From an uncultured Spirochaetales bacterium (GTDB taxonomy: Bacteria; Spirochaetota; Spirochaetia; Sphaerochaetales; Sphaerochaetaceae): 64,000 bases of DNA. The DNA lies in the NCBI GenBank assembly GCA_902773355.1, contig CACYEI010000041.1, positions 1 to 64,000 of the forward strand, given 5' to 3'. This document shows, in pieces, positions 28,355 to 37,192 of the stretch (position 1 is its first letter; the number at the start of each line of letters is the position of its first letter). The notes below the pieces were generated by a model that saw only the letters and a program-made list of their open reading frames with translations, had not been told where the DNA came from and searched no databases. A program made the position numbers and the translations under genes.

Positions 28355-29989
28355 ATGTCAAAAAGTTTAAAAAAGGAAATTCTAGTTTTATTTTTATTAT
28401 TTTTATTATTATTTTGCTCATGTAATTTTATTATTGATACAGGTATAGAATCAAAAGATACAGCTGTTGAAGTTGTTGATTCAGAAGGGGCATATGAATC
28501 TGATAGTAAGAACCATTGGCTTATAGATGAAGATGGAAATCGTACTAGTGAAGAGTCTCATATGTATTATAATTCTTATGAAGTTGATGGAAGTGGAAAA
28601 TATATTAAAGAATGTTCTGTTTGTCATTATAAAAGAATATATGAAAAAATAGTTAATATTCCTGAGTATGATAAGAATAAAGGCATGTATAGTTTAACTA
28701 TATACGCTCCAAGTATATATGATGATGAATATGACCCCTCTTCTGTAAAAACTGGTTCATTTACATTAAATGCCTCTGAGCCGTTAGATTATTTTAATTC
28801 CAGTAATTCTACTTCTAAAAGTTTAGATGAAAATATATTTAATGAATTAATAGAAGTAAAAGCATCAGATACGTTATATTTAAAAGGTAATTTTAAAGAT
28901 AATAATCCATTAACTTTTTGGTTTGATGAAAATATAAGTAAAACTAGATTTTATATTAATGAAAAACTTAAAACAGAATCATTTGTTGATACTTCTTATA
29001 TTGGTATTGGTAAGCTTTCACCTGAAGAATTTTATGCAGAATTTAAAACAGCTTTAATAAAGGAATTGAAAAAAAACTATCTAGCTAAAGAAGAAAGAAT
29101 TTTTGATATTAAAGCTTGGGATTATGATGGAGATGGATTTTTTAGAATTGTAGTTATAGATTTTGGTGAGGGTACAGTTAATTTATCTGGAGCAGGGATA
29201 TCTGGAACTGCTGGAATGTATATTACAAATAACTTATCAAATAATACTAGTTCAAATCAATCTGACATGTTTTTTGTAAATGCAAGATTTATAGTTCCAT
29301 GTTATTATAAGCTTAATTACTCTGTTGAAAAATGTGCTCAGACCTTCATGACTACGCTTTCCCATGAATATATGCATTATTTACAAGATGCATATTGGGT
29401 ACAACAATATAATACAACTATACATGGAAGTAGTTTTTTACTTGAAGGTTTAGCTAATACTGCGGCTTTCTATACTTTAAAAGATTCAAATATAATTAAT
29501 TTTTCAGGTCAGATGTCTTTTATGCTTAATAAAAGTAAAACATTTTATCCATATTTAGAAACTCAAAATGAAACGTCTGTGAATTTATTGGATTATTCAT
29601 TAGGACCTTTGTTCTTTATTTATGTAAAAAATAATTTTGGACAGAATTTTGTTAATGAATTTATAAAAAGTGGAGAAGGGAATATTGATAAGGCTACTAG
29701 AAGTATTCTAAAAGTTCCATTTACAAAGGTTTATATTGATTGTTTAAGAGAGGCTTTTTCTCAAGCAAATAATAAAACATCTGATTATTATTTATTTGGA
29801 TTAACAAAAGATATTATAGATCAATATTTTTCCTATGATGGTGTTGGTGAGGTTTTTACTTTATCTAATAATTCGTATAGCGCTTCAAATTTATACCAGT
29901 TAAGTTTTGTTATTAATAAATTTGATAAAAAATATAATGAAATTTATTTAACAGGTTCAGGTTTTAAAACATTTATATTTTTTCTTTAA
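28355..29989 (+). CDS. Lipoprotein with HExxH zinc-metallopeptidase motif
   Basis: The N-terminus (MSKSLKKEI, a Leu/Phe run, then FCSCN) is a lipoprotein signal, so the 544-residue protein is probably anchored to a membrane by its lipidated cysteine. A central zinc-protease motif His337-Glu338-Tyr-Met-His341 is followed by Glu364 in FLLEGLANTAA, the arrangement of gluzincins. It most resembles hyicolysin-like (M30) peptidases, which fold the active site into a similar SHEYxH helix. A short Cys-x-x-Cys pair (ECSVCHYKR, about residues 88-96) lies near the N-terminus. The next gene starts 2 nt after its stop and encodes another exported protein. Activity is inferred from the motif only. Confidence 0.75.
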   Translation: MSKSLKKEILVLFLLFLLLFCSCNFIIDTGIESKDTAVEVVDSEGAYESDSKNHWLIDEDGNRTSEESHMYYNSYEVDGSGKYIKECSVCHYKRIYEKIVNIPEYDKNKGMYSLTIYAPSIYDDEYDPSSVKTGSFTLNASEPLDYFNSSNSTSKSLDENIFNELIEVKASDTLYLKGNFKDNNPLTFWFDENISKTRFYINEKLKTESFVDTSYIGIGKLSPEEFYAEFKTALIKELKKNYLAKEERIFDIKAWDYDGDGFFRIVVIDFGEGTVNLSGAGISGTAGMYITNNLSNNTSSNQSDMFFVNARFIVPCYYKLNYSVEKCAQTFMTTLSHEYMHYLQDAYWVQQYNTTIHGSSFLLEGLANTAAFYTLKDSNIINFSGQMSFMLNKSKTFYPYLETQNETSVNLLDYSLGPLFFIYVKNNFGQNFVNEFIKSGEGNIDKATRSILKVPFTKVYIDCLREAFSQANNKTSDYYLFGLTKDIIDQYFSYDGVGEVFTLSNNSYSASNLYQLSFVINKFDKKYNEIYLTGSGFKTFIFFL

Positions 29990-29991
29990 CT

Positions 29992-30747
29992 ATGAAAAAA
30001 TTTTTATTTATTGTTTTTATATTTCTTTTTTCAGTTTTTTCTGTTTTTTCTCTTCTGCTGATAGATACTACTGAAGATTATTTTGTATTGGAAAAAGAAA
30101 AATGGGATAGATTTTATAAGGCGTATAAATTAAATGATACAGATGAAATATTAAATATTATTAACTTTGGTTATTTACCAAATGTTTTTTCAACCTTTGA
30201 AGGTTCATTATCTGTTTTTGATATGATTATGTCTATGAATGATCCAAGATGTATTGATTCATTATATAAATATGTTATTCAATATGTTGAATTTAAAAAA
30301 GATCAAAGTCTTATACGCTCAGAATCTGAACAGCCAATTCAATTAGATATATCACTATATATCGGTAAAAAAAAATTGGATATTCCAGTATATTTATCTG
30401 GTTCTAAAGATGTGATTGAGGCTGATAAAAGAAAAGAAACATTTGTAGAATTTTCTTGTAAAAACAGTATAGATTTTGTACCCGATGAAGAAGATTTTAT
30501 TTTTTTATCTTCAGATAACGGTACAATTTCATTAGTAAATTATAAAAAAAAAATAAATAAAGTAATTGAGAGCAGTCTTAATAAAGACATCCTAAGAAAT
30601 ACTGTTTTAAAAGTTGTTTATCATAGTCATGGTTATTTATTTACGTTTGAAACAAAAAGCATTCCTATAAAACAATTAAAAGATATAAAAAATGGGAATT
30701 ATGTATATGATTATTCAATAGATTTCATAGATAAATCTATAGTATGA
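29992..30747 (+). CDS. Secreted protein of unknown function
   Basis: I do not recognise this 251-residue protein. It has a strong signal peptide (MKKFLFIVF, Phe/Ser-rich core, cleavage probably near FSLLL). It carries no lipobox, no further membrane segment and no known motif. The mature part is a helical N-terminal region with ankyrin-like spacing (DEILNIINFGYLPN, around residue 52) and a C-terminal beta-rich part. The gene follows the HExxH lipoprotein by 2 nt and precedes an MFS transporter by 7 nt, so it is in one transcription unit with them. No ribosome site is visible, so translation probably depends on coupling. Confidence 0.65.
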   Translation: MKKFLFIVFIFLFSVFSVFSLLLIDTTEDYFVLEKEKWDRFYKAYKLNDTDEILNIINFGYLPNVFSTFEGSLSVFDMIMSMNDPRCIDSLYKYVIQYVEFKKDQSLIRSESEQPIQLDISLYIGKKKLDIPVYLSGSKDVIEADKRKETFVEFSCKNSIDFVPDEEDFIFLSSDNGTISLVNYKKKINKVIESSLNKDILRNTVLKVVYHSHGYLFTFETKSIPIKQLKDIKNGNYVYDYSIDFIDKSIV

Positions 30748-30754
30748 GGTTGGA

Positions 30755-32383
30755 ATGAAATTAAATTATAAAAGAGTCCTTTGTGTAGGTTTTGCTTTCT
30801 TTCTCATTTGCCTTTTTTGGCAGGCTTATGACAACATAATACCTAAGATTTTGATTGATAAGTTTGGAATGAATCAGACATGGAGTGGTTTTATAATGGC
30901 TCTGGATAATATTTTATCCTTATTTTTATTACCATTTTTTGGTTCTATATCTGACAGAACAAAAACTAAACTTGGTAAAAGAACACCTTTTATATTGGTA
31001 GGAACTATTTGTGCTGTAATTTTTTTTATTATTCTTGGTTTTATAGATAATTCACAGAAAAAAAACCTAGGTTATGTTACTGAATATGTTGTAGATGATA
31101 ATGGATTAAAAAAAATGGACAGTAGAGGTATGGATAGTATATGGAATGAAGAAAAAGATAAGATTTTAAGTACTTCTACAGGTGTTTTATTTACTCTAAG
31201 TAATAATTTATCAGAAAAAGAAATTAAATCAAATGGTATTAAATTATTTACAGAAACTGAATTTAAATCTATTAAAGTAGAAATATATACAAATGATGGA
31301 AAAATAGTAGATAACCCAGATTTTGTTGATTTTGTAACTTCTGCCAGAAGGGCTTATGCTGCAGATATTACGTCCAAACATAAAAGTACCCTTGTTTTAT
31401 TTATTGTTTTCCTTCTCTTAGTTTTAATTTCTATGTCATCTTTCAGATCTCCAGCTGTAGCTTTAATGCCAGATATTATAGTTAAGCCATTAAGATCAAA
31501 AGCTAATGCAATAATAAATTTAATGGGATCCATAGGTGCTATATTTGTTCTTATTATGGGCATATTGTTTTCTACTGGTAAATCATTAAATCTAACTATG
31601 AGTTATTTGGTATATTTTTCTACTATTGGAATACTTATGCTTTTAGCATTATTCATTTTTAAGTTAACAGTAAATGAAGAGAAGTTTGTAAAGGAGATGG
31701 AAGAAGAGACTGGTAAATATTTACATAATTTATCTTCTGAAAAGCAAACAGGGAATTATTATAAGGAAAGACTTACTAAAGAAGAAAAAAGAAGTCTTAT
31801 TTTCTTAATTATTTCAATTATTTTTTGGTTTATGGGTTATAATGCAGTAACATCAAAATATTCTGTTTATGCCGGAGCTGTTCTGAATAGAGATTATAAT
31901 TCTACTTTAATAATTGCACAGGCAGCTGCTGTTTTAGCATATATACCTGTAGGATTTATTTCTTTTCATTTAGGTAGAAAAAAAACAATTTTAATAGGTA
32001 TATCAGTACTTACCTTATCTTTTTTTGTTGCTTCATATTTGAATGAATTTAGCAATCCTATAATAATGAATGTTATGTTTGCATTAGCAGGAATTGGATG
32101 GGCTGCTATAAATGTAAACAGCTATCCTATGGTTGTTGAATTAGCCACAGGAACTGATGTTGGAAAATATACAGGGTATTATTATACTGCATCCATGGCC
32201 GCTCAGACTATAACTCCATTTCTTAGTGGTTTCTTAATGGATAGTTTTAAAAAAATGACAGTACTTTTTCCTTATGCTGTTATTTTTACATCTCTATCCT
32301 TTATTACTATGTTATTTGTCAAACATGGAGATTCAAAGCCTGAAATAAAAACAGTCATATCAGATGCATTTTCTGAAAATTAA
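30755..32383 (+). CDS. MFS sugar transporter, SLC45/GPH-like, with inserted domain
   Basis: This 542-residue major facilitator has the loop 2-3 motif SDRTKTKLGKRTP at about 66-78, typical of sucrose-type SLC45 and GPH carriers, and about twelve membrane segments. Unusually, a hydrophilic stretch of roughly 110 residues (about 99-210) is inserted after the third membrane segment, where related carriers have a short loop. It should lie outside the cytoplasm. The gene precedes a GH31 glycosidase and a second sugar symporter, so uptake of a disaccharide or glycoside is likely (inference). The ribosome site (GAGGTTGG) is moderate. Confidence 0.85.
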   Translation: MKLNYKRVLCVGFAFFLICLFWQAYDNIIPKILIDKFGMNQTWSGFIMALDNILSLFLLPFFGSISDRTKTKLGKRTPFILVGTICAVIFFIILGFIDNSQKKNLGYVTEYVVDDNGLKKMDSRGMDSIWNEEKDKILSTSTGVLFTLSNNLSEKEIKSNGIKLFTETEFKSIKVEIYTNDGKIVDNPDFVDFVTSARRAYAADITSKHKSTLVLFIVFLLLVLISMSSFRSPAVALMPDIIVKPLRSKANAIINLMGSIGAIFVLIMGILFSTGKSLNLTMSYLVYFSTIGILMLLALFIFKLTVNEEKFVKEMEEETGKYLHNLSSEKQTGNYYKERLTKEEKRSLIFLIISIIFWFMGYNAVTSKYSVYAGAVLNRDYNSTLIIAQAAAVLAYIPVGFISFHLGRKKTILIGISVLTLSFFVASYLNEFSNPIIMNVMFALAGIGWAAINVNSYPMVVELATGTDVGKYTGYYYTASMAAQTITPFLSGFLMDSFKKMTVLFPYAVIFTSLSFITMLFVKHGDSKPEIKTVISDAFSEN

Positions 32384-32449: not shown

Positions 32450-32458
32450 TTAAGGAGT

Positions 32459-34447
32459 TTGCATATCATAAACAATATAATCAAAGACTTAAAGGTGGCA
32501 GTAGGGCATGTAGATAATGATTTTTCCATGTCCAGAGGTAGCTTTAAATATAAAAAGAAAATATCAAATAAAACTTGGCTGGATTTACAGGAAATTTCTG
32601 AAAGTGATTTTGGATATATATTACGTTATTCTTATCCAAAGACTAGTGAGGAGTTTTTAATTCATGTATTAATTAAAGGCTCAGATATGCATATATTTAT
32701 GCTTCCTAATAAAATGATTGATAACGGTGTGTGTAATTGTTATTGGATATCAATTATTGCTGATCCTTCAGAATATATTTATGGTTGTGGAGAGAATTAT
32801 TCAATTTTAAATTTAAAAGGTGAGAATGTTAGAATTTGGGTCGCAGAACATCAGAATACGTTAAGAATAACAAAAAAACTTATTAAATGGAAACTTTTTG
32901 GAAAAAAACCTGATAAAATACTTAATTTTTCTAAATATGAAACATATTATTCACAGCCAACTTTTATATCTAGTAAGCTTTTTTTTGTTCATGTTAACAC
33001 TACTTCATATTCAGAATTTGATTTCAGAGATGGAAATAGAACGGTTTTATATTTACAGGACTTACCAGATTTGCATATTTGTTTTTCTGATAATTTTACA
33101 GGCTTATCCAAAAAATTATCAAATTTTTTAGGGCATCAGAATATACTTCCGGATTGGTTATATGATGGAACTATTATAGCAGTTCAGGGGGGTACGGATA
33201 AAATTGAGGAAAAAATACGTATTTCCAATCAGTATGATATTAAGGTTTGTGGAGTTTGGTCTCAGGATTGGTGCGGATGCAGAAAAACAGCATTTGGATA
33301 TCAGGTAATGTGGAACTGGGAATGGGATAAGGAACTTTATCCTAATTTGGATCAAAAGATAAAAGAATGGAATCAAAAAGGAATTAAGTTCTTAGGCTAT
33401 ATAAATCCATTTATTGCAGTAGAAAAAGATTTATATAAAGTAGCTTCAGAAAGAGGTTATTGTGTTAAAAATAAATCTGGTGAAGATTATATGGTAACAA
33501 TAACTACATTTCCTGCTGCTATGGTTGATTTTACTAATCCAGATGCTTATGAATGGTATAAAAATATAATTAAAAATAACATGATAGGTCTAGGTATGGC
33601 TGGCTGGATGGCAGATTTTGGAGAATATTTGCCTGTTGATTGTGTTCTTTATTCAGGAGAAGATCCTGAAAAAATGCATAATACATGGCCTTCTCTTTGG
33701 GCTAAAATGAACCATGAAGCTATATATGAAACTAAAAAAGAATCAGAAGTTTTCTTTTTTACCAGATCTGGTTTTACAGATACAATCAAGTATTCATCTA
33801 TGATGTGGACAGGAGATCAGCATGTGGACTGGTCCAAAGATGATGGTTTACCTTCTGTTATTCCTGCAACATTATCACTATCATTAAGTGGATTTGGAAT
33901 AACTCATTCAGATGCAGGCGGTTATACTACAGTTATGCAAATGAGACGAACCAAAGAACTTCTAATGCGCTGGGAAGAAATGAATGTTTTTTCTCCATTA
34001 CTTAGACTTCATGAAGGAAATCAGCCTGAAAATAATATACAGTTTGACGCAGATAGTGAAACATTGACTCATTTGTCCAAAATGTCATATATGCATTATA
34101 AACTTAAAAATTACCTTAAATATCTAGTTAAAATGTGCTCTGAAGAAGGTACTCCTGTAATGCGTCCGTTATTTTATCACTATAATGAAAAACAATCCTA
34201 TGAAGAAAAGACAGAATATTTGCTTGGACGGGACATACTTGTTGCTCCAATTATAGATGAATCTACATATGAAAGAAGTGTTTATTTACCAAACGATAAT
34301 TGGGTGCATTTATTTTCTAAAACAGGATATGAAGGCGGAATATATAAATTAAAATCACCTATTGGAGAGCCTTTGGTCTTTATTAGAAAAAACAGTGATT
34401 ATTTTTCTGAATTAATTCAAATTACGGAGGGGAGAGTTAATGAGTAA
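32459..34447 (+). CDS. GH31 alpha-glycosidase of the YihQ (sulfoquinovosidase-like) subgroup
   Basis: This is a cytoplasmic retaining alpha-glycosidase of about 662 residues without a signal peptide. The nucleophile is Asp386 in GWMADFGEYLP and the acid/base is Asp453 in WTGDQHVDW; both motifs are those of YihQ-type enzymes. Measured from these, Gln243, Gln269, Trp285 and Tyr489 match the YihQ positions Gln262, Gln288, Trp304 and Tyr508 as I recall them, but position 282 is Gln where sulfoquinovosidases have the sulfonate-binding Arg301. Substrate is therefore uncertain: an ordinary alpha-glucoside is as likely as a sulfoquinovoside. The start is doubtful. TTG 32459 lies only one base after AAGGAG, and GTG 32495 or a rare ATC/ATA start are alternatives. 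Confidence 0.88.
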   Translation: MHIINNIIKDLKVAVGHVDNDFSMSRGSFKYKKKISNKTWLDLQEISESDFGYILRYSYPKTSEEFLIHVLIKGSDMHIFMLPNKMIDNGVCNCYWISIIADPSEYIYGCGENYSILNLKGENVRIWVAEHQNTLRITKKLIKWKLFGKKPDKILNFSKYETYYSQPTFISSKLFFVHVNTTSYSEFDFRDGNRTVLYLQDLPDLHICFSDNFTGLSKKLSNFLGHQNILPDWLYDGTIIAVQGGTDKIEEKIRISNQYDIKVCGVWSQDWCGCRKTAFGYQVMWNWEWDKELYPNLDQKIKEWNQKGIKFLGYINPFIAVEKDLYKVASERGYCVKNKSGEDYMVTITTFPAAMVDFTNPDAYEWYKNIIKNNMIGLGMAGWMADFGEYLPVDCVLYSGEDPEKMHNTWPSLWAKMNHEAIYETKKESEVFFFTRSGFTDTIKYSSMMWTGDQHVDWSKDDGLPSVIPATLSLSLSGFGITHSDAGGYTTVMQMRRTKELLMRWEEMNVFSPLLRLHEGNQPENNIQFDADSETLTHLSKMSYMHYKLKNYLKYLVKMCSEEGTPVMRPLFYHYNEKQSYEEKTEYLLGRDILVAPIIDESTYERSVYLPNDNWVHLFSKTGYEGGIYKLKSPIGEPLVFIRKNSDYFSELIQITEGRVNE

Positions 34448-35942
34448 TTTAGATATTAAAGAGAAAGATGTTAAAGAGAAAGAAAATAAGCTATGGTCTA
34501 AAATATCTTATGGATTTGCTGATATATATGGTGGGGGAGCTTTTGTTGTAATAAGTACTTTTTTTACAGTTTTCTTGACTAAAGCTCTAGGTATGCCAAC
34601 AGCACTGGCAGGTTCTATTCCTCTAGTTGGAAAAATATGGGATGCTATAACTGATCCTCTTATGGGTAATATAGCTGATAGGACTAGGTCAAAGCATGGT
34701 GCTAAACGTTTTTGGATTTTAATTGGTAGTATTATATCAGCCATTACATTTCTTGTAATGTGGATTCCTTTATCTTCAATATCAAGTAGATTACAATATA
34801 TTTTCTATATTCTGATGTATATGCTTTTCTCTACCGGTTTTACTATTGTAATGGTTCCATATAACGGACTTCTTCCTGATATGATAGATGATTATACTAT
34901 GAGATCAAAATACTCCAGTGTACGCATGGTTTTCTCATCATTAGGAGCTATTTTAGCAGGATTAATTCCAACAATTCTAATTAAGGATAATACAAATCCA
35001 AAACAGTATCTGTCTGTTGCCATAATATTTGGTATTATCTTTCTTTTTTCTATATTGCTAACGTATTTTGGTACGTGGGAATCCGATAAGAAAATTGAAA
35101 AAATTAGTGTTAAGGAAACTTTTACACAATCATTTACAGTATTTAAAAGTCGTTCATTTTGTTTATTCTTAGCAATCTTTGTTTTTGGTCAGGTGGCTGC
35201 AGATTTTGTAACAGGACTAGCAGTTTATTATGTAGATGATGTATTAAATGCATATAAAGGTGGAAATTTTACTATTCTTATGGCTGTTATTCTTATTTCT
35301 CAATTTATTGGTATGATGGTATTTGGTCCTATAATGGCTAAAACTTCAAAAAAATTTCCTATTATTTTAGGTATTCCTATTAGGATAATTGCAGTATTTA
35401 CCATGCTTTTCTTCTCACATGAGGGAACTAATTTTACCATAATTTTATTTTTGTCTTTTATTGTTGGTCTCTCTATGGCGGGAACTTCATCAAGTATTTA
35501 TGCCATGTTATCTGATATGTCTGATATAGATGAATTAATAACATCTATAAAACGGCCAGGAATTTGTTCAGGAATGGCAACATTTATCAGAAAAATATCT
35601 GCAGGTTTATCTTCTGCATGTATAGGAATCCTTTTGGCTTTGGTGGGCTATAATGAAGTTGCAGCCAGTGAAGGTTTAAGACAGGCTGCATATGTACAGT
35701 CAGGTATTGCTTATATTTATGTATTTGCCCAAATATTCTTTTTAATTATAACTCTTGTGTTTACTGTTTTTTTCCCTATGACTAAAAAAGAATTTGAAAT
35801 TATTAGAAGAGAAGTTAAAAGACGTAAGGGGTTAGATGAATCAATATGTACAGAAGAAGAAAAGAGAGTATGTGAAAAAGTTACTGGTTTTGAATATGAA
35901 AAATTATGGAATAGAAATAATGCTTTGAAATTTAAAGCATAA
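34440..35942 (+). CDS. MelB-like GPH family sugar:cation symporter
   Basis: This is a twelve-segment glycoside-pentoside-hexuronide symporter of 500 residues. Near the second membrane segment it has IWDAITDPLMG, with Asp68 and Asp72 spaced like the sodium-site Asp55 and Asp59 of E. coli MelB. The loop ADRTRSKHGAKR follows. Sodium-coupled uptake of a glycoside is thus plausible (inference). E. coli uses GPH carriers (YihO, YihP) next to YihQ, so the pairing with a YihQ-like enzyme is familiar. The ATG overlaps the end of the GH31 gene by 8 nt and follows GGAGGGGAG, so it is translationally coupled. Confidence 0.9.
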   Translation: MSNLDIKEKDVKEKENKLWSKISYGFADIYGGGAFVVISTFFTVFLTKALGMPTALAGSIPLVGKIWDAITDPLMGNIADRTRSKHGAKRFWILIGSIISAITFLVMWIPLSSISSRLQYIFYILMYMLFSTGFTIVMVPYNGLLPDMIDDYTMRSKYSSVRMVFSSLGAILAGLIPTILIKDNTNPKQYLSVAIIFGIIFLFSILLTYFGTWESDKKIEKISVKETFTQSFTVFKSRSFCLFLAIFVFGQVAADFVTGLAVYYVDDVLNAYKGGNFTILMAVILISQFIGMMVFGPIMAKTSKKFPIILGIPIRIIAVFTMLFFSHEGTNFTIILFLSFIVGLSMAGTSSSIYAMLSDMSDIDELITSIKRPGICSGMATFIRKISAGLSSACIGILLALVGYNEVAASEGLRQAAYVQSGIAYIYVFAQIFFLIITLVFTVFFPMTKKEFEIIRREVKRRKGLDESICTEEEKRVCEKVTGFEYEKLWNRNNALKFKA

Positions 35943-36049: not shown

Positions 36050-37192
36050 ATGGTAAAAAATGGTATGAATATGAGCACAATTAAGAATAAGAATAAAAAT
36101 GCCATTTTGAGCTATATAAATGATATTGTTGCTGTTTCTAGAATAGATGTTGCAGAGGCTACAGGTTTAACTGGTGCCTCTGTAACTCAGCTTACTACTG
36201 AACTTATAAGAGATGGTTATTTAAGAGAAATTGGACTTTCAGATGAAGTTAGACATAAAGCTGGAAGAAAAAAGATTTTATTAGAGCTTAACCCTGAATA
36301 TGCTTATGTCATCACTGTTAATATTGAACCAGAGATTACATCATTGGCTTTGGTAAATTTTCAAGGTAAAGCTCTTACCATTAAAAAACTTAAAACAAAT
36401 AAAGCTATTGCTGCAGAAGAATATTTGAATTTTTTAATATTAGAAATTAAAGAGATTATAAATTCTCTTTCATCTAGAAACAAAAATAAAGTAAAGGCTG
36501 TATCTGTAGGAATAACGGGAAACGTAGATAAAGAAAAAGGCATATCAATATTTGCAAATGGTATCTGGAATAAAAGCGTATCTATTAAAGATATACTGGA
36601 GAAAGAATTAAATATTCCTGTTTTAGTGGAAAATAATATTAAGGCTTTATCTTTGGCTGAATTACTTTATGGTATTGGAAGAAAATGCAATAGTTTCATG
36701 GTAATTAAATGGGGACCAGGATTAGGAAGTGCCTTTATAACGGATAATAAAGTATATGAAGGTTACAATGGACAAACTGCAGAAATAGGTCATGTTATAG
36801 TTGATTCAAATGGTGAAAAGTGTTCGTGTGGACGTTCTGGATGTCTGGAAACCAAAATTTCATATACTGCTCTTAGAAATATTATGAATTTTAATCCGGA
36901 TACTTTTGAATCTGATTATTTAAATTCAAATTTAGAAACTAAAAAAAGAATTGATGAAATTATTTCTTTATTAGCTAGAACTATTGTTAATTCTGGTGTT
37001 TTGTTTTTCCCTAAATATATTATTTTAGAGGGGAGCCTGTTTAGTAATAAAATAATTAGAAATAAATTAATAGAGTATTGTAAATCTTTTGATCAAGAAT
37101 ATGATGAAAATAGAATCTTATTTTCAGAATTATATAATCAAGAAGAATACATTGGCTTAGCAGCTGTTTTTGTTAATAAATTTCTATATTAG
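36050..37192 (+). CDS. ROK family transcriptional regulator
   Basis: The 380 residues combine an N-terminal winged helix-turn-helix (about 15-65; VSRIDVAEATGLTGASVTQL is the recognition part) with a ROK sugar-kinase-like domain. The zinc site of the family is complete: His248, Cys258, Cys260 and Cys265 (CSCGRSGC). Such proteins (XylR, NagC, Mlc types) repress sugar genes and respond to sugars or their phosphates. Its position at the end of the MFS/GH31/GPH locus suggests it controls that locus, perhaps through the palindrome at 32434. The first of three nearby ATGs (36050) fits the AAAGGG site best. The stop overlaps that of the convergent glnS. Confidence 0.9.
   Translation: MVKNGMNMSTIKNKNKNAILSYINDIVAVSRIDVAEATGLTGASVTQLTTELIRDGYLREIGLSDEVRHKAGRKKILLELNPEYAYVITVNIEPEITSLALVNFQGKALTIKKLKTNKAIAAEEYLNFLILEIKEIINSLSSRNKNKVKAVSVGITGNVDKEKGISIFANGIWNKSVSIKDILEKELNIPVLVENNIKALSLAELLYGIGRKCNSFMVIKWGPGLGSAFITDNKVYEGYNGQTAEIGHVIVDSNGEKCSCGRSGCLETKISYTALRNIMNFNPDTFESDYLNSNLETKKRIDEIISLLARTIVNSGVLFFPKYIILEGSLFSNKIIRNKLIEYCKSFDQEYDENRILFSELYNQEEYIGLAAVFVNKFLY

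Follow-up and report, generated by a model that had tools for sequence, protein, structure and literature searches.

Can a GH31 glycosidase serve as a sulfoquinovosidase when the position of its sulfonate-binding arginine is occupied by glutamine? The question is raised by a gene at 32459-34447 (forward strand) of the 64,000-nucleotide stretch of Sphaerochaetaceae DNA analysed here, hereafter the window. A sequence-only reading had seen in its product a YihQ-type enzyme with Gln in place of Arg301, possibly an evolutionary intermediate or a new specificity. Work on YihQ and AtSQase is said to have established that the sulfonate-binding Arg separates sulfoquinovosidases from other GH31 enzymes, and YihQ Arg301 mutants reportedly lose most activity. 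The window protein is outside the family as defined by that Arg motif; we nonetheless consider it likely, on the evidence below, that it works like a sulfoquinovosidase of a distinct, Gln type.

The gene presents an intact frame of 662 codons, full length relative to E. coli YihQ, in which residues 18-649 align with YihQ 44-669 (phmmer, E 2.6e-189, 633.8 bits), and the same search places every solved sulfoquinovosidase above all other GH31 structures. The NCBIfam YihQ equivalog NF007746 is matched above its cut-off at 757.6 bits, and the YicI-type model NF007940 scores 200.6 bits, below its cut-off of 606. An AlphaFold model of the protein (pLDDT 93.9) features the GH31 fold and domain order nearest to the sulfoquinovosidases: its best 23 PDB chains belong to the four solved members of that family (TM 0.88-0.92), with the next GH31 enzyme at 0.77. 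Neither sequence nor fold groups the protein with ordinary alpha-glucosidases or alpha-xylosidases of the YicI type (TM 0.77 against 0.91). The true start codon is uncertain: within 32450-32470, the TTG at 32459 sits only 1 nt 3' of an AAGGAG motif, to which ATC (32465) or ATA (32468) would have normal spacing, so that translation may begin at a rare codon or at what was once an ATG.

Alignment with YihQ shows the residue mapping proposed from the sequence to be exact. Gln243 (33185-33187), Gln269 (33263-33265), Trp285 (33311-33313) and Tyr489 (33923-33925) occupy the positions of Gln262, Gln288, Trp304 and Tyr508, and the catalytic pair is retained as Asp386 (nucleophile position, 33614-33616, YihQ Asp405) and Asp453 (acid/base position, 33815-33817, YihQ Asp472), all on the forward strand. 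The alignment runs free of gaps through the FG-x-[RQ]-[VL]-x-W frame around position 301, confirming Gln282 (codon CAG, 33302-33304, +) at the Arg301 position, and no Arg was found elsewhere in the aligned sulfonate site. The signature is therefore QQQWY rather than the QQRWY or KERWY that include the sulfonate-binding Arg, which is present at position 301 in the three aligned sulfoquinovosidases (YihQ, 8R56 and E. rectale SftG). Together, the phmmer and fold results and the other four signature residues uphold the description of the protein as YihQ-type, its pocket otherwise preserved.

The surroundings of the pocket differ as well. A TTFPAA loop (residues 349-354; 33503-33520, +) replaces the GEF loop (YihQ 368-370) of all Arg-type proteins, and His455 (33821-33823, +), two residues past the acid/base Asp, stands at the position of YihQ Asn474; both the window clade and its Bacilli/Tenericutes sister conserve it. 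In the N-terminal domain, the GVGR stretch of the Arg enzymes gives way in the window clade to HQN followed by a cationic helix; this loop and helix (residues 125-153 with R125, H131, Q132, N133, R136 and K140; 32831-32917, +) are conserved across the clade and missing from Arg-type enzymes. The basic N-domain residues and His455 could supply positive charge for a sulfonate or an aglycone, and the window enzyme probably does not clamp a sulfonate as the Arg enzymes do, as the sequence-only reading proposed. Where Gln enzymes of different clades occur in sulfo-transketolase clusters of spirochaetes, they have no such basic loop, so Gln alone may suffice there, or another solution exists.

The Gln form is widespread. 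A single scan of 84,980 species genomes with a degenerate DNA pattern written for the Gln variant matched at least 119 stretches, and 80 of 80 stretches examined among the matches listed encode YihQ-type GH31 proteins. A lone substitution or sequencing error at Gln282 is rejected by this conservation of Gln across many phyla. Among 295 genomes of a Lachnospirales sample, 16 carry the Gln type and 13 the Arg type. We found no Gln-type enzyme among solved structures or in the literature surveyed, and no measured activity for any. The GEF loop follows the Arg form strictly, being present in 42 of 42 Arg and 0 of 134 Gln proteins over all those collected, and, across 150 related genomes, in all Arg proteins and no Gln protein; since Arg arose once, the association counts as a single joint event and not as a series of independent ones.

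The family also has outlying members. Long Gln-type forms of about 750 aa (L046, L047, L059, L063, L075, L087, L091, L101, L111, L117 and L126) keep the same QQQWY residues. They come from Chloroflexi, Actinobacteria, Leptospiraceae, Pseudomonas and other groups, and an N-terminal signal or membrane segment is present in several. A core sulfoglycolysis gene lies near a long Gln form in 3 of 41 loci (8 kb). As unlinked long forms are also QQQWY, the QQ-WY residues alone are not diagnostic, and we dropped them as proof of sulfonate binding. Inside the window clade, an EQQWY sub-group (L076, L198, L199, L200) has Glu at the Gln262 position, and one relative of the clade (L204, genome G363) combines Q288R, R301H, W304C and Y508Q with replacement of the acid/base Asp472 by Tyr in an open frame, and is likely an inactive or repurposed enzyme. 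In two Lokiarchaeota MAGs (L060, L073) a Gln-type GH31 gene adjoins an SftI-like isomerase gene, a pairing that suggests sulfosugar use in Asgard archaea.

To which side does the Arg/Gln change point? In a tree of 129 proteins, from which position 301 and the loop had been masked out, a single Arg/Gln change separates the two types and the Arg clade has a support of 99. A second tree of 69 rows, which includes two GH31 outgroup rows, recovers the Arg clade at 100/98 with one Arg origin in 100% of bootstraps, and both outgroup rows root on the Gln side. The window protein is placed outside the Arg-type clade, in a 100/98 group of proteins from gut and rumen Lachnospiraceae, Erysipelotrichaceae and one Treponemataceae genome. 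Together with proteins of Bacilli and Tenericutes, this group makes up a larger clade (100/99), possibly the sister of the Arg clade (support 90/65). With this unnamed Gln-type clade the window protein shares Gln at position 301, an ITTFPAA-type loop, His at position 474 and a GPH neighbour. Most likely, Arg is nested and Gln ancestral, a direction that depends on the outgroup rooting. Because the Arg forms make up one nested clade derived by a single change, the window protein kept Gln and did not lose Arg. The proposed intermediate is not supported by this placement, Arg marking one derived clade and Gln the state around it; a recent loss of Arg, whose only support is the presence of Arg in the characterised sulfoquinovosidases, is very improbable given the single change on the site-masked trees, the nesting, the outgroups and the bootstraps.

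Gene neighbourhood, on which the substrate assignment of Gln-type enzymes rests, ties the window clade to sulfosugar breakdown. Its Gln genes are adjoined by genes for a GPH carrier, a 226-aa transaldolase-like protein (SftT-like) and a 3-hydroxyisobutyrate-dehydrogenase-like reductase (SftR-like), the latter two named from sequence reading and operon position, and further by DUF4867, an SftI-type isomerase, an exporter and a ROK regulator. Transporter details apart, this gene set is that of the sulfo-transaldolase operon described in E. rectale (PMC11968277). SftI-family genes were recovered from 29 of 30 genomes of the window clade but from 0 of 3 genomes with a long unlinked Gln form, and in 28 of the 30 the Gln type is the sole GH31 of the YihQ-type family. 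At least 33 of 59 8-kb loci of the window-plus-Bacilli clade, many of them incomplete, hold a core sulfoglycolysis gene.

That the Gln enzyme supplies such a pathway with the same sugar is most strongly supported by an exchange of glycosidase type within one operon. Between an Arg-type locus (L272) and the Gln-type locus of Butyrivibrio sp. MB2005 (L229), the exporter is 82%, SftT 93%, SftR 93%, DUF4867 84%, SftI 74% and the ROK regulator 52% identical, whereas the GH31 proteins share 42% identity and are of opposite type; the comparison looks alike for L228 and L230. Since the operon is conserved and the glycosidase type exchanged, both types very likely free the same sugar, and gut bacteria appear to use the Gln and Arg forms interchangeably. 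This residence of the window-clade enzyme in sulfo-transaldolase operons, exchangeable with the Arg type, also speaks against Gln as a loss that removes sulfoquinovoside specificity. We considered whether Gln clusters handle a different sulfosugar, given the presence of another isomerase family, "isomB" (about 24% identical to the SftI-like gene), but dropped the idea because isomB accompanies the Arg type too and window-clade clusters mostly carry SftI.

In the window itself, the GH31 stop codon is overlapped by a GPH-type sugar:cation symporter gene (34440-35942, +), the carrier already recognised directly downstream, which is 65-75% identical to the GPH genes adjoining Gln-type GH31 genes in sulfo-transaldolase operons. 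A ROK/NagC-type regulator gene follows (36050-37192, +), whose product reaches at most 48% identity to the ROK regulators that accompany Gln-type GH31 genes. The MFS transporter gene upstream of the GH31 gene (30755-32383, +) has no more than weak or partial matches beside other Gln-type genes, and its membership of the cassette is uncertain. Just upstream of it, 28355-30747 encodes proteins of 544 and 251 aa with no Pfam or NCBIfam match. No sulfoquinovose isomerase with a transaldolase or transketolase lies beside the GH31 gene within the window. The absence of sulfo-EMP genes, pointed out in the sequence-only reading, thus holds for the window, but another contig of the host genome (C18, locus L031) carries a full sulfo-transketolase operon: an SftI-like isomerase, a split transketolase, an SqwI-like isomerase, an iron alcohol dehydrogenase, DUF4867, a TauE exporter, a ROK regulator, an ABC importer and an Arg-type GH31. 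These genes make up the sulfo-transketolase set that yields isethionate (PMC12890257), a pathway reported in rumen Sphaerochaetaceae by Krasenbrink et al. (PMC13219744).

Contamination of the window contig is not supported, its UvrB being 78% identical to the same family and about 53% to Lachnospiraceae. As the contig is genuine and no close relative of its GPH carrier was found in 100 related genomes, Firmicutes are the probable source of GH31 and GPH, and the GH31-GPH-ROK cassette as a whole is probably an acquisition of the Sphaerochaetaceae spirochaete. In other spirochaete sulfo-transketolase clusters (L032, L036, L039, L040), genes for a Gfo/Idh/MocA oxidoreductase and for amidohydrolase-like and sugar-phosphate-isomerase-like proteins recur, possibly GH188-like or a side branch.

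The coexistence of both types in one genome follows a pattern. In 11 genomes with both (G000, G153, G166, G393, G188, G189, G070, G048, G022, G005 and G054), the Arg gene adjoins an ABC importer, its Gln counterpart a GPH carrier, and in two Acholeplasma relatives (G188, G189) both gene/importer pairs flank one sulfo-transketolase cluster. No GPH gene was seen beside the Gln gene in G088 and G082. The Gln copy of Sphaerochaeta is a member of a different Gln clade and sits apart from genes of the pathway; a different substrate is thus possible for it.

These data are consistent with a model where the GPH symporter would import an alpha-sulfoquinovoside, with sulfoquinovosyl glycerol or a close relative of it as the likeliest candidate. 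From this the Gln-type enzyme, as a retaining GH31 alpha-sulfoquinovosidase with Asp386 as nucleophile and Asp453 as acid/base, would free sulfoquinovose, a sulfur sugar of plants. The ROK regulator would be the third member of this acquired uptake-and-hydrolysis cassette. The freed sugar would then enter the host's separate sulfo-transketolase pathway on C18, a link made within the genome only, where the Arg-type sulfoquinovosidase may be served by the ABC importer. In the pocket, the sulfonate would be held by Gln282 with Trp285 and Tyr489 instead of by the Arg301 guanidinium, possibly aided by the basic N-domain loop. Against this reading, Gln offers no charge as Arg does, and a possible GH188-type enzyme elsewhere in these genomes has to be counted. 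Tentatively, the Gln type may represent a second, older and widespread GH31 solution for sulfoquinovosides, working through Gln and a basic loop or through tuning to a different glycoside, with Arg301 and GEF as a later, single innovation.

A narrower form of the sulfoquinovosidase reading, somewhat doubtful but to be taken seriously, is that the enzyme prefers a different sulfoquinovose glycoside, for example one with an acylated or charged aglycone, and that Gln and Arg enzymes split substrates, each with its own importer. The pairing of Arg with ABC and Gln with GPH in one genome, even around the same cluster in G188 and G189, and the clade-specific basic loop would fit such a split, whereas other genomes have the Gln type alone, in replacement of the Arg type, and Arg types are paired with GPH carriers in E. 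coli and others. That the Gln type instead cleaves a neutral alpha-glycoside accompanying the sulfolipid (an alpha-glucosyl- or alpha-galactosyl-glycerol head group), its gene residing in sulfoglycolysis operons since both substrates derive from plant membrane lipids, is unlikely. It would account for the missing charged clamp, for a TTFPAA loop unlike GEF, for the Gln-type and GPH pairs apart from sulfoglycolysis genes in Sphaerochaeta (L041, L043, L044) and for the long proteins unlinked to sulfoglycolysis, but in many window-clade operons the Gln enzyme is the only glycosidase among the sulfosugar enzymes, it stands in for the Arg type where the remainder of the operon is conserved, and the window model is nearest to the solved sulfoquinovosidases. 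Nor does the state of the gene suggest a decaying or unused acquisition: the 662-codon frame is open, catalytic and clade-typical residues are all kept, and GPH and regulator are intact, making this quite improbable despite the lack of an adjacent pathway, the poor TTG-AAGGAG spacing and the existence of a degenerate family member with Tyr for the acid/base Asp.

If Gln types are functional sulfoquinovosidases, the Arg rule overlooks about half of the sulfoquinovosidases of Lachnospirales, and the count of gut and rumen bacteria as sulfolipid users changes. Judged from their names, the yihQ amplicon primers 1201F/1526R of a cow rumen study (PMC13219744) span roughly YihQ residues 400-509; as such an amplicon leaves out position 301, surveys of this kind cannot separate the Gln from the Arg type. 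Furthermore, the swap of types within one operon offers a natural system for how glycosidases recognise a sulfonate.

Among known systems, E. coli YihQ (PDB 5AED, 5OHT) resembles the window protein in fold (TM 0.90-0.91), in the Asp pair and in the positions of Q262, Q288, W304 and Y508 at about 44% identity, from which the window departs by Gln for Arg301, TTFPAA for GEF, a rebuilt basic N-domain loop and His for Asn474. AtSQase (PDB 5OHS, 7OFX), of the KERWY type, shares the GH31 sulfoquinovosidase family and fold, and plasmid-borne relatives of it, though K and E take the places of the two Gln residues, keep Arg and GEF and fall inside the Arg clade. An NAD-dependent sulfosugar glycosidase group parallels that of the window in its changed sulfonate site and distinct gene clusters, but is unrelated to GH31; as the contact there is made by a backbone amide, the sulfonate site stays intact. 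Finally, SftG of Eubacterium rectale (PDB 6PNR) has the role and the sulfo-transaldolase operon type seen among relatives of the window clade but, unlike the window protein, is of the Arg type, and gene order differs between the types: Gln-type genes stand at the operon start with GPH, whereas Arg-type genes follow DUF4867.
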